NCBI GenBank assembly: GCA_030147705.1
Contig: JASBUV010000068.1
Location: 1-33,001 of the forward strand
Direction of reading: 5' to 3'
DNA length: 33,001 nt
From: Gammaproteobacteria bacterium
Lineage (GTDB): Bacteria; Pseudomonadota; Gammaproteobacteria; Pseudomonadales; Pseudohongiellaceae
This document shows, piece by piece, positions 15,501-20,979 of this stretch; position 1 is the stretch's first letter; the number at the start of each line of letters is the position of its first letter. Made by a program: the position numbers and the translations under genes. The notes beneath the pieces were generated by a model. That model saw nothing but the letters and a program-made list of their open reading frames with translations. It was not told where the DNA came from and ran no database searches.

Positions 15501-16727
15501 GGCTTGCATGTGCACCCCTGCACTTATGCCTTCAGGAATTAAGGTTGGTCTACCTCCCATCCGGCACGAGTGTTCTTGCAGTATACGCCCTAATCTTCAA
15601 ACCACGAAATAAGGGTGTTCTCAAATCGCTTTTTAAGGTGTTTTGCTGACTTCTCAGTCTTGTAAGCCTTGTTGTTGACCAATCGGATTATAGGTCAGAC
15701 GCTTCCCTGAGATTTGTTTCAGAGCTATATCAGCTCTCTCAGAGTCGTCATAACCGTTAGCTGTCCTGTGGTTGTATCGGAAGTCGAATTCCGAGAGGTA
15801 ACGGGATAGGTGGCGTTCCTTGCAGTGCTGGTAGGTTCCTTTCATGCCGCGCTTAAACACTGAATAGTAGTTTTCCACTGTGTTGGTGTGCAGCAAGGGA
15901 TTGTCCTTGCGTACATACTCGCCAGCAGCGTGGTTAACGATGTGATGCTGTGCGAACTTGGGACCGATTGAGCGATACACTGAGGCACCGTCAGTCATTA
16001 ACTGGGCGTCTCGGGCTACGTTCTCACGGATGATAGGCATTAAGGTTTTAACGTCTACCTTGTCCACATGAATTGATCGCACTTGCTTGGTGTCACGGTC
16101 TACCAGAGACAGGACTTTACGCTTCTGCTTGGAGTAGGGAGCGCCGATTTTGCCTCTTGCAAGGTCTTTACGGGGCTTGGCATCGACCTTGCCCATGTAG
16201 GTTTCATCGACTTCTACCATTCCGCCACCAGAGCCGAAGGGAGACGAGGACTCGTCTTTCATCGCTTCACGGATGCGGTGGCACATGAACCACGCTGTTT
16301 TGTAGGTAACTCCTACAGTTCGGTGGATCTGATGGGCTGAGATGCCCTTCTTTGAAGAACACATGAGATAGGTTGCCATTAACCACTTGTTGAGAGGCAC
16401 CCTTGATCGCTCGAATACTGTACCGACTGTCACAGTGAACTGCTTGCGGCATTCGTACTCTTTGCACTTATACAGACCCACTCTAGCCCCTTTGATGGGC
16501 CAGGCTCCGGTTGAATCACAGTGAGGACACACGGGGCCTTCGGGCCAGCGCAATTCCTCTAAGTATTCTCTCGCTTTGTCTGCGTCTTGAAACTGGGGCT
16601 GTGTTAGATTGCACATATCGTTCACCTTTTGTACGATGTGCTAACTGTATACATTCCCAGTGGGTTTGTAAAGTATATAATTATCACGGACATACAGGTT
16701 AGGTGAGCTTGCGGTGCTTTGCAAGTC
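15501..16727 (-). mobile_element. IS1595-family insertion sequence (boundaries tentative)
   Basis: Transposase plus weak putative terminal inverted repeats: GGCTTGCATGTGCACC at 15501 versus reverse complement of 16713-16727 (GACTTGCAAAGCACC). No 8-bp target duplication seen at these ends. Confidence 0.4.
15654..16625 (-). CDS. IS1595-family transposase
   Basis: LRWPEGPVCPHCDSTGAWPIKGARVGLYKCKEYECRKQFTVTVGTVFERSRVPLNKWLMATYLMCSSKKGISAHQIHRTVGVTYKTAWFMCHRIREAM...VEVDETYMG...NTVENYYSVFKRGMKGTYQHCKERHLSRYLSEFDFRYNHR; Zn-ribbon plus DDE-type core of IS1595/ISXO2. Confidence 0.93.
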   Translation of the reverse strand: MNDMCNLTQPQFQDADKAREYLEELRWPEGPVCPHCDSTGAWPIKGARVGLYKCKEYECRKQFTVTVGTVFERSRVPLNKWLMATYLMCSSKKGISAHQIHRTVGVTYKTAWFMCHRIREAMKDESSSPFGSGGGMVEVDETYMGKVDAKPRKDLARGKIGAPYSKQKRKVLSLVDRDTKQVRSIHVDKVDVKTLMPIIRENVARDAQLMTDGASVYRSIGPKFAQHHIVNHAAGEYVRKDNPLLHTNTVENYYSVFKRGMKGTYQHCKERHLSRYLSEFDFRYNHRTANGYDDSERADIALKQISGKRLTYNPIGQQQGLQD

Positions 16728-16959: not shown

Positions 16960-17652
16960 ATGAATTCTCTACCTACCAGCCTCGGCAAGCGCATCACATC
17001 AGCCCTCTCTCGCTTTTGGAAGGACAACAGACAGTTCTTCTTCCTGCTGTGCTGCATTGTATTCTTCAAAAGTGCCATTGCCGACCTGAGCTCGATCTCC
17101 GGTGCCTCCATGCAGCCCACGCTTCTGGATGGCGACAAGGTCTGGGTCAACAAACTGGCCTATGATGTGAAGATCCCTTTCACCGAGATTTCTCTCGCCG
17201 AACTTGCCGATCCGGAACGCGGCGACATCGTGATTATTGATTCAAGTCGGGCGGGCAAGCGGCTGGTCAAGCGCATCGTTGGTTTGCCAGGCGATACGAT
17301 CTACATGCAGAACAATGCACTGGTTATTAATGGCCGCGCTGCCAATTATGAAGTGCTCGATAGCGACGACGATGCATTAATCATCCTCGAAGAACTGCCT
17401 GACCATCCGCATCAGGCGCAGGTGTCTCGTGGCTTTATCAATCGCTCCAATCGCTCCTATGGGCCAACTATTGTCCCGGATGATCAGTATTTCGTGCTCG
17501 GCGACAACCGCGATAACTCCGCCGACAGCCGCGTCTACAGCTTTATCCCCCGAGAGGAAATTATCGGACGTTCGAGTTCGGTGATTTTCTCATTGGACAG
17601 CGATAACAGCTACCTGCCTCGTGGCGAACGGTTTCTTGCAGATATCGAATAA
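16960..17652 (+). CDS. lepB: Signal peptidase I (S26 family)
   Basis: ISGASMQPTLLDGDKVWVNKLAYD (catalytic Ser box), RGDIVIIDSSRAGKRLVKRIVGLPGD (Lys box), YFVLGDNRDNSADSRVYSFIPREEIIGRSS. Confidence 0.92.
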   Translation: MNSLPTSLGKRITSALSRFWKDNRQFFFLLCCIVFFKSAIADLSSISGASMQPTLLDGDKVWVNKLAYDVKIPFTEISLAELADPERGDIVIIDSSRAGKRLVKRIVGLPGDTIYMQNNALVINGRAANYEVLDSDDDALIILEELPDHPHQAQVSRGFINRSNRSYGPTIVPDDQYFVLGDNRDNSADSRVYSFIPREEIIGRSSSVIFSLDSDNSYLPRGERFLADIE

Positions 17653-17780: not shown

Positions 17781-18380
17781 ATGCAAAAACGAAAAATTGG
17801 CAGCCAACCATCTGGTTTGCTCGCTGGATTGCTGATGGTTGTGGGATTGCTCTTCACACCATTGCTTACCGCACAGGAATTCGTGTGGGCACCGGAATTT
17901 CCTGTCGGTGCCGAGATCGCAGAGATTTCTGCCCAGGACCAGGATGGAGAACTGCGCGAGTTCGCTGACCTTGTTGGCGAAAATGGCATGCTGTTCATGC
18001 TCAGTCGCTCCTTCGACTGGTGACCCTTCTGTACTGCTCAGCTCGTGCAGCTGATAGATCTCACAGAACAGTTTGAAGCAATCGGCGTCAGCATTGTGGC
18101 CATGACGTACGATCCCGTGGATTTCCTCAAGGAAGTTGAGCTGGATCGAGGCGTGGAATTCACTCTGCTAAATGACGAGGCCATCACCCACGTCAATCGG
18201 CTGGGCATTCTCAATACTGACTATGCACCGGATTCACGGGCCTATGGTGTGCCCTATCCCGGAATCTTCCTGATCGATACCGACGGTGTGATTCGCTACA
18301 AGTTCGCCGAGGAAAGCTATCGCGACCGCCCGGATTTCGCGAACGTGCTTGAAGCGGCGACAGAAATGGCCGGGCAATAA
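17781..18380 (+). CDS. Putative exported redoxin-like selenoprotein; Sec encoded by in-frame TGA at 18021-18023 (codon 81), motif W-U-P-F-C
   Basis: MQKRKIGSQPSGLLAGLLMVVGLLFTPLLTAQEF (signal peptide)...GMLFMLSRSFDW[TGA]PFCTAQLVQLIDLTEQFEAIGVSIVAMTYDPVDFLKEVELDRGVEFTLLNDEAITHVNRLGILN...RAYGVPYPGIFLIDTDGVIRYKFAEESYRDRPDFANVLEAA. Same frame both sides of one TGA; AhpC/TSA-like redoxin features span the junction. Confidence 0.86.
18029..18066 (+). promoter_or_regulatory. Putative bacterial SECIS stem-loop
   Basis: Core stem TCAGCT (18038-18043), loop CGTGC (18044-18048), AGCTGA (18049-18054); lower stem CTGT (18029-18032)/ACAG (18063-18066). Apical loop begins after 20 nt from the TGA and has G as its second nucleotide, within the general bSECIS model. 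Confidence 0.7.
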
Positions 18381-18753: not shown

Positions 18754-20979
18754 ATGAATACTCTTGCCCGTTGTGCCCGCTTCTTCCTGCTCGTTCTGAC
18801 TCTGTTGCCTGCGCTGACCTATGCGCAGCTCTCCACCTACGATGTCCCTCGCATCAACAGCGAGCCTGTGATTGATGGCAATGTCGATGACGCTGAGTGG
18901 GCGGCAGCGACGCGGGTCCCCGTCAACATCGAATTTGCACCGGGCGATTCCATTCCGGCACCGGTGAATGCAACTGGTCTGCTCATGGAAGACGGTGAAG
19001 TGCTTTATATTGCCTTCATCGCCGAAGATCCGGACCCGGACCAGATTCGCGCGTACTACAGCGATCGCGATTCCTTGTGGGATGACGATTACGTGGAAGT
19101 GGTACTGGACACCTTCAATGATGAGCGGCGCGCCTACCAGTTCTATGTGAACCCACTCGGTATTCAGGCAGACTCCATTCAGGACGACCTCAACAACCGG
19201 GAAGACGGATCCTGGAATGCGATCTGGGACAGTGCTGGCCAGATCACCGAAAACGGCTACATGGTCGAAATGGCCATCCCATTCAAGCAGCTCCGCTTCA
19301 CAACTTCCGATACGGATCAGCAATGGGGCCTCGACCTGATCAGACACTATCCGCGCAATCGCGAACATCGAATTTCCATCGCCGGTCGTGATCGGGATGT
19401 GTCCTGCTATCTCTGTCAGATCAGCAAGGCCGAAGGTTTTGCTGATCTGGAGCGAAGCCGCAATCTGGAGGTGATACCCACTATCACGGCGACCTCAATC
19501 CAGACCCGCGACCCCTATGCGAACACGGGTTGGCAAAGCGATGACATAGACCCTGATGGCGGCATCGACGTACGTTGGGGTATTAATCAGGACCTCTATT
19601 TGAATGCGACCATCAATCCGGATTTTTCACAGGTCGAAGCGGACAGTGCCCAACTGGATATCAACAACACCTTCAGCCTTTATTTCCCGGAACGCCGCAC
19701 GTTTTTCCTGGATGGCGCCGACTACTTCAATAGTGCACAGAATATTGTGCACACCCGGAACATCGCTGACCCAAGTTACGGAGCGAAACTGACCGGCAAG
19801 AGTGGCGACCATTCCTTTGGCTTGCTCTCCGCGCGCGATGAGACCACCAGCTTTCTGATGCCTGGCAATCTCAGCTCCAGACTGGCTGCCCTGCCCGATC
19901 TGGAAAGCGATGTGAGTATTGCGCGTTATCGCTATGACGTGTTCGAGAACTCCAGTATCGGCGCTCTCGTCACGGATCGCCGCGGCGACGGTTACAGCAA
20001 TACGGTGACCAGCCTCGATGCAGTGCTGCGCCCTACCGCATCCGATGTCTTCACCATTCAAACCATGCGCTCCAGCAGCGATTATCCGAACGAGATCCAA
20101 AACCGCTTCAGTCAGGCAGCCCACCTCAGCGACAGTTATCACTATCTCGACTATCGCCACAATGACCGGCGCTGGGACGTGTGGATAGCCTATACCGATG
20201 TTGGCGCTGATTTCCGAGCGGACCTGGGGTTTATCTCGCGCGTGGATTACGACTACTTCGTAACCCGGGTCGGACACAGCTGGCGCAACGATGGTGAAAA
20301 TTTCTTCTCACGCATCCGGGTCGCGCTCGATTACGACATCACACACGATCAGAGTGGATTCGAGCTGGAAGAAGAATTTGAAGTCTTTCTGAACATGAAT
20401 GGCCCGATGCAGTCACGTATTGATGGCCTGTTCGGTGGCAGCAAAACCTACTGGAATGGCCAATACTTCGATGAGCAGTTCAATCAACTGAGTTTGAACT
20501 TCTCGCCCTCGCCGGGTCTTGAGCTTGGCATGATGGTGCGCGTTGAAGATGTGGTCGATTTCGCGAATACGCGGCTTGGGCGCTCAGTGCGCGTAGGCCC
20601 CGAGATTGGCTGGCAGCTTGGTCGTCATATCGAGATCGATGTCGAGTTCCAGCATCAGAACTTCGATGTGGATGGTGGCAGACTGTTCACTGCCAAACTC
20701 ACTGACGCGGAATTTACCTATCAGTTCAACGCGCGGAGCTTTCTCCGTTTCACCGCACAGTACATCGACAACGATCGCAACCCCGATTTATATGTGCGTC
20801 CGGTGCAGAGTCGCAACCGTGAACTGACCACCCAGCTGCTATACAGCTACAAGGTGAATGCCGCAACGCGCTTCTTCGTTGGCTATTCGGACGCCGGCTT
20901 TCAGGATGACGCATTCGAGTCTATCGAGCAGACCAGTCGCGCCTTCTTCGCCAAGTTCTCCTACGCCTGGCAGCCCTGA
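18754..20979 (+). CDS. Exported CBM9-like sugar-binding / DUF5916 domain protein
   Basis: Signal peptide; PVIDGNVDDAEWAAATRV...LYIAFIAEDPDPDQIRAYYSDRDSLWDDDYVEVVLDTFNDERRAYQFYVNPLGIQADS...YMVEMAIPFKQLRF (CBM9-like) followed by a beta-rich region FPERRTFFLDGADYF... typical of DUF5916. Confidence 0.86.
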   Translation: MNTLARCARFFLLVLTLLPALTYAQLSTYDVPRINSEPVIDGNVDDAEWAAATRVPVNIEFAPGDSIPAPVNATGLLMEDGEVLYIAFIAEDPDPDQIRAYYSDRDSLWDDDYVEVVLDTFNDERRAYQFYVNPLGIQADSIQDDLNNREDGSWNAIWDSAGQITENGYMVEMAIPFKQLRFTTSDTDQQWGLDLIRHYPRNREHRISIAGRDRDVSCYLCQISKAEGFADLERSRNLEVIPTITATSIQTRDPYANTGWQSDDIDPDGGIDVRWGINQDLYLNATINPDFSQVEADSAQLDINNTFSLYFPERRTFFLDGADYFNSAQNIVHTRNIADPSYGAKLTGKSGDHSFGLLSARDETTSFLMPGNLSSRLAALPDLESDVSIARYRYDVFENSSIGALVTDRRGDGYSNTVTSLDAVLRPTASDVFTIQTMRSSSDYPNEIQNRFSQAAHLSDSYHYLDYRHNDRRWDVWIAYTDVGADFRADLGFISRVDYDYFVTRVGHSWRNDGENFFSRIRVALDYDITHDQSGFELEEEFEVFLNMNGPMQSRIDGLFGGSKTYWNGQYFDEQFNQLSLNFSPSPGLELGMMVRVEDVVDFANTRLGRSVRVGPEIGWQLGRHIEIDVEFQHQNFDVDGGRLFTAKLTDAEFTYQFNARSFLRFTAQYIDNDRNPDLYVRPVQSRNRELTTQLLYSYKVNAATRFFVGYSDAGFQDDAFESIEQTSRAFFAKFSYAWQP

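Follow-up and report, generated by a model that had tools for sequence, protein, structure and literature searches.

A very probable bSECIS hairpin downstream of an in-frame UGA in a peroxiredoxin-like UxxC selenoprotein gene of a marine-type gammaproteobacterium

The window, that is, the whole 33,001-nucleotide stretch of DNA that was analysed, contains an open reading frame (17781-18380) interrupted by nothing but a TGA at 18021-18023, and an inverted repeat follows this TGA closely. Is the UGA read as selenocysteine (Sec), and does the repeat form the bacterial SECIS element (bSECIS) for that reading? The features concerned are as follows.

15654-16625, reverse strand: IS1595-type transposase gene (DDE_Tnp_IS1595), upstream of the Peptidase_S26 gene
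16960-17652, forward strand: signal peptidase gene (Peptidase_S26, by Pfam), next upstream
17781-18380, forward strand: open reading frame through one UGA, for a predicted 199-aa exported selenoprotein of the AhpC/TSA fold with RSFDW-U81-PFC84 (UxxC); translation, Pfam, AlphaFold and PDB fold match
18021-18023, forward strand: UGA, putatively read as Sec81; the homologues have TGA at this site in 92 distinct genes and TGC/TGT in 35 others
18027-18032, forward strand: 5' side (TTCTGT) of a possible lower helix, in the minimum free energy (MFE) fold; unsupported as part of the element
18038-18043, forward strand: 5' arm (TCAGCT) of the putative bSECIS upper stem; sequence, fold and stem test
18044-18048, forward strand: apical loop (CGTGC), with G18045-U18046 as the G[U/G] that published bSECIS loops show
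18045-18047, forward strand: codon U+8 (GTG, Val89), which begins with the loop GU
18049-18054, forward strand: 3' arm (AGCTGA) of the putative upper stem; sequence, fold and stem test
18063-18068, forward strand: 3' side (ACAGAA) of the possible lower helix, unsupported as part of the element
18754-20979, forward strand: gene for a DUF5916/CBM9-like protein, next downstream and kept beside most Sec-form genes

The hairpin in the window

The preliminary description, made from the sequence of the window, had proposed a 6-bp stem, TCAGCT-CGTGC-AGCTGA, with a 5-nt loop placed 20 nt after the UGA and G as the second loop base. This agrees with the sequence letter for letter: the UGA-to-loop distance is exactly 20 nt, the second loop base is G, and the hairpin lies inside the open reading frame. 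The published bSECIS consensus (PMC13188914, Fig. 2A) has a loop of 3-9 nt, an upper stem of 4-16 bp, a G within the first two loop positions in the form G[G/U], a distance of 16-37 nt from the UGA and an MFE of at most -7.5 kcal/mol. The hairpin at 18038-18054 falls within all of these limits (5-nt loop CGUGC, 6-bp stem, 20 nt, MFE of -8.6 to -13.6 kcal/mol computed on segments of 46-59 nt), the MFE being a weak criterion. It is therefore like the consensus in loop size, stem length, loop G[G/U], UGA spacing and MFE limit. It differs in that the loop and arms of the studied clade are unusually uniform (TCAGCTCGTGCAGCTGA is nearly invariant) and in that a conserved lower helix finds no support in this clade. 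The Rfam scan of the window gave no match at the gathering score.

Folding, which the preliminary description had suggested as a check, gave a divided result. The lower pairing CTGT/ACAG was recovered in the MFE fold, where it extends to 6 bp (TTCTGT/ACAGAA), but the stability was no better than that of shuffled sequences (z +0.9 to -1.2, not significant). Furthermore, counting both strands, the window has 1196 TGA trinucleotides, and a hairpin compatible with the permissive bSECIS model comes after 654 of them (55%). Only 2 of the 1196 precede a hairpin of a strict form, with at least 6 Watson-Crick bp and an NG[GU] loop of 5 nt, and the hairpin at 18038-18054 is one of these two. The hairpin had been put forward as independent support for the selenoprotein call; because such hairpins are common, that support is weak when the hairpin is taken alone. 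Judged from sequence comparison across homologues (49 perfect stems vs. 6.9 expected) and not from folding, the hairpin is above chance.

Stem, loop and codons in the Sec and Cys forms

In a search of relatives, orthologues across the genus carried one in-frame TGA. A wider search yielded the Sec form from families f41, f31 and f4 and the Cys form from the sister genus g23 and family f42. When named genomes were scanned, the group fell with Pseudohongiella, OM182 and other Pseudomonadales. The distinct sequences amounted to 92 Sec genes (TGA) and 35 Cys genes (TGC/TGT). Before the stem counts, we set apart L173-L175, three Sec homologues that have diverged to 27-29% identity, which left 89 Sec genes. 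A stem at the hairpin's UGA spacing was looked for in these three and was absent; they represent a divergent selenoprotein group (FRGHWUPYC and similar), in which the SECIS may sit further downstream.

We compared the five core pairs of the stem (18-32, 19-31, 20-30, 21-29 and 22-28, with the U of the UGA as 0). All five were intact at the same spacing in 83 of the 89 Sec genes vs. 9 of the 35 Cys genes, and a core with one unpaired position was found in 6 of the 89. Pair 21-29 was C-G in 82 Sec genes and T-A in 7, never mixed, and was paired in 46% of the Cys genes. Pair 20-30 was G-C in 79 Sec genes, A-T in 6, G-T in 3 and A-C in 1. On the tree, the Sec genes changed at least 4 times at pair 21-29 and at least 8 times at pair 20-30. 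In register, the upper stem paired at 0.99, and when it was slid by 1-4 nt this was at most 0.56. RNAalifold returned a weak structure for all Sec genes together (-2.1), just the hairpin's stem for the genus-like Sec set (-6.7) and no structure for the Cys genes. Conservation of the stem, compensatory pairing and a contrast between Sec and Cys forms were thus observed. The preliminary description had proposed looking for covariation across orthologues and had staked its call on Sec orthologues carrying a stem at this spacing; the stem is kept there in Sec and not in Cys genes, its changes are compensated, and L173-L175 are the exceptions. On a protein tree built without the stem columns, the Sec/Cys state changes only three times, so the association of the stem with Sec rests on few independent events.

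The palindrome could also be a by-product of protein conservation, given that the codons of a Q-L-x-x-L peptide (CAG CTN NNN CAG CTG) form the stem by themselves. Indeed, the stem also turns up in some Cys homologues that carry QLQQL (9 of 35, perfect in L054). Since this peptide tends to form a palindrome unaided, a test at the level of synonymous codons matters. We kept the amino acids fixed and drew synonymous codons from the flanking codons in 100,000 simulations. Among 57 Sec clusters, 49 perfect stems were observed vs. 6.9 expected, and none of the 100,000 simulations reached 49; the clusters are not fully independent, and the P of this null is not phylogenetic. The 28 Cys clusters stayed on the null, with 4 perfect stems observed vs. 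3.4 expected (P 0.46). In addition, where L048 and L163 have Phe in place of Leu (CTC to TTC), the other arm has changed to match. We therefore regard a mere by-product of the peptide as very improbable.

The codons of the stem are also unusually fixed. Where the amino acid agrees, codons U+6 to U+10 were identical at 0.98 among 64 genus-type Sec genes, vs. 0.48 in the rest of the compared stretch; the corresponding value for 20 sister-group Cys genes was 0.41. Just 5' of the stem, the U+4/U+5 codons (18033-18038) are AAA GCT in relatives, conserved at 0.89 and 0.86, and ACT GCT in the window; they may contribute to recognition by SelB or the ribosome.

The loop followed the same division. G[GU] occurred at the same place in 89 of the 92 Sec genes, including all 83 whose stem is intact, and in 4 of the 35 Cys genes. 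Correspondingly, codon U+8 was GTN or GGN in 89 of the 92 Sec genes (Val 82, Gly 7), which matches the published G[G|U] loop pattern (PMC13188914). The 35 Cys genes had Val in 3 and Gly in 1 at this codon, and otherwise Gln, Glu, Ile or others. The natural reading of these alignments is that Val or Gly at U+8 would be required by the RNA and not by the protein. We lean towards the broader view that the SECIS loop dictates this part of the protein, U+8 being Val or Gly only because GUN or GGN gives the loop GU or GG, and that the Cys lineages freed this residue and the surrounding codons.

Two details of the preliminary description lend the call no support. The lower helix CTGT/ACAG is not conserved in register: in the form TTCTGT/ACAGAA it was paired at 0.58 in register vs. 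0.63 when slid by -2 nt, with all six pairs present in 1 of 64 genes, and we rejected it as a conserved part of the element. Further pairs extending below the upper stem were paired at no more than 0.53. The C after the UGA had been read as a weak termination context. This C comes from a Pro codon that is also kept in 33 of the 35 Cys homologues, and since the Pro codon (WUPYC/WCPYC motif) is common to the Cys genes, the C is no evidence for recoding.

Reading of the UGA, the product and the genome

Standard ORF calling ends the gene at UGA 18021-18023, as would be expected if the UGA were a true stop arising from a nonsense mutation, a sequencing error or a split gene. However, the same UGA aligns with the redox Cys (CxxC position) of the homologues in dozens of separately assembled genomes, and the downstream frame is conserved, at 51-79% identity in the scan of named genomes. 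A true stop here is hardly credible.

Reading through the UGA gives a protein with ...LSRSFDW-U-PFC.... The 199-aa protein matched Pfam AhpC-TSA (PF00578) with an E-value of 8.6e-21 and 74.6 bits (cut-off 26), and the domain has UxxC (U81-P-F-C84) rather than TxxU. AlphaFold predicted a confident thioredoxin-like fold (pLDDT 90.6), and the nearest solved folds in the PDB were peroxiredoxins, Sulfolobus Bcp4 (TM 0.89 by target length) and M. tuberculosis AhpE. Sec81 stands just before helix 82-93 with Cys84 one turn beyond it; the attacking residue of the thioredoxin-like/peroxiredoxin fold is usually found just before such a helix. By eye, the N-terminus looks like a signal peptide. Our best inference from these predictions is an exported UxxC oxidoreductase or peroxidase. 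The best NCBIfam match by E-value (1.3e-10) was the SelL-related redox protein NF040769; its score of 41.2 bits is below the cut-off of 120 and the match covers residues 46-118 only, so we did not file the protein under this family.

Of 76 long loci inspected (L076-L155), 58 have a Peptidase_S26 gene upstream of the Sec-form gene, and none of the 58 is a Cys-form locus. This neighbour may be linked in function to selenoprotein export, or the arrangement may simply reflect common descent. Within the genus, paralogous selenoproteins of about 400 aa (L049, L050 and others) have SADWUPYC, followed at the C-terminus by about 200 additional aa. They have the same hairpin with the loop CGTGG, and some genomes hold several copies (at least 4 in G025).

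The genome of the window (G000, window contig C179) comprises 2.66 Mb in 295 contigs and is 77.9% complete. It has a tRNA-Sec with anticodon TCA (UCA; 64 bits), SelA (579 bits), SelD (248 bits) and SelB (398 bits), the last with the winged-helix RNA-binding domain PF09107 (SelB-wing_3). SelB was found in 31 of the 31 Sec-form genomes tested vs. 5 of the 18 Cys-form genomes. The SelD locus (L179, G000:C242:17259-18215) lies within an 820-aa open frame, which is probably the known Ndh-SelD fusion. The genome also has a second selenoprotein, the TxxU peroxiredoxin L002 (G000:C217:6168-6533; FFPKAFTGGUTMQC), with a 7-bp hairpin, GGCGCTG-CGTGA-CAGTGCC, whose loop CGTGA starts 21 nt after the UGA and is nearly that of 18038-18054.

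If UGA coded for an amino acid such as Trp or Gly throughout the genome, it would likewise be read in frame and would need no SECIS; we give this almost no weight, as neighbouring genes end at UGA (15654 for the transposase, 20979 for the DUF5916 gene), the UGA alternates with Cys codons and not with Trp or Gly, and the full Sec machinery is present. A DNA operator or transcription terminator within the gene would suit the near-perfect palindrome but is just as implausible, given that the palindrome is tied to the Sec form at a fixed distance from the UGA inside a conserved frame, with no T run after it.

Proposed mechanism and relation to known selenoproteins

The call of a selenoprotein gene with a bSECIS has come through each computational test that might have overturned it: the Sec machinery is present, orthologues have the same UGA, the stem at fixed spacing goes with the Sec form, and its changes are compensated. 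On this comparative evidence, we are highly confident that the hairpin at 18038-18054 represents the bSECIS of a UxxC Prx-like selenoprotein gene. With the ribosome at UGA 18021-18023, SelB, loaded with GTP and Sec-tRNA(UCA), would bind the mRNA hairpin, with its 6-bp upper stem and 5-nt GU loop, through its C-terminal winged-helix domain and would deliver Sec at the UGA in place of termination. The product would be an exported oxidoreductase of the peroxiredoxin fold, in which Sec81 and Cys84 would act as the redox pair. We infer SelB binding, Sec delivery and the redox chemistry from established biology.

UxxC Prx-like selenoproteins of PF00578 have already been described (PMC1088965, PMC2398784, PMC13188914). 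The present protein shares the AhpC/TSA fold, the UxxC, the occurrence in marine bacteria and the bSECIS after the UGA with those of the Sargasso Sea (PMC1088965) and the Global Ocean Sampling ('Prx-like 1', PMC2398784). The version of the studied clade differs in that it looks exported, has RSFDWUPFC and adjoins a signal peptidase gene. By the shared features, it may fall within that published subfamily. Our literature search found no paper combining Pseudohongiella and selenocysteine. Very probably, the element and the protein are of a known type, and the locus is a new example from a marine-type gammaproteobacterium with unusually clear evolutionary evidence.

Dozens of Sec genes, set against close Cys homologues, made it possible to test at codon level with an internal control, and the outcome was clean. 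Across a mostly uncultured group of Pseudomonadales, the finding restores a gene that is split at the UGA by standard ORF calling. It also offers a compact natural set for the bases read by SelB and for the constraints that recoding signals place on proteins. If the loop does dictate residue U+8, the family would be a natural experiment on an RNA signal shaping protein evolution, with faded hairpins in the Cys descendants.
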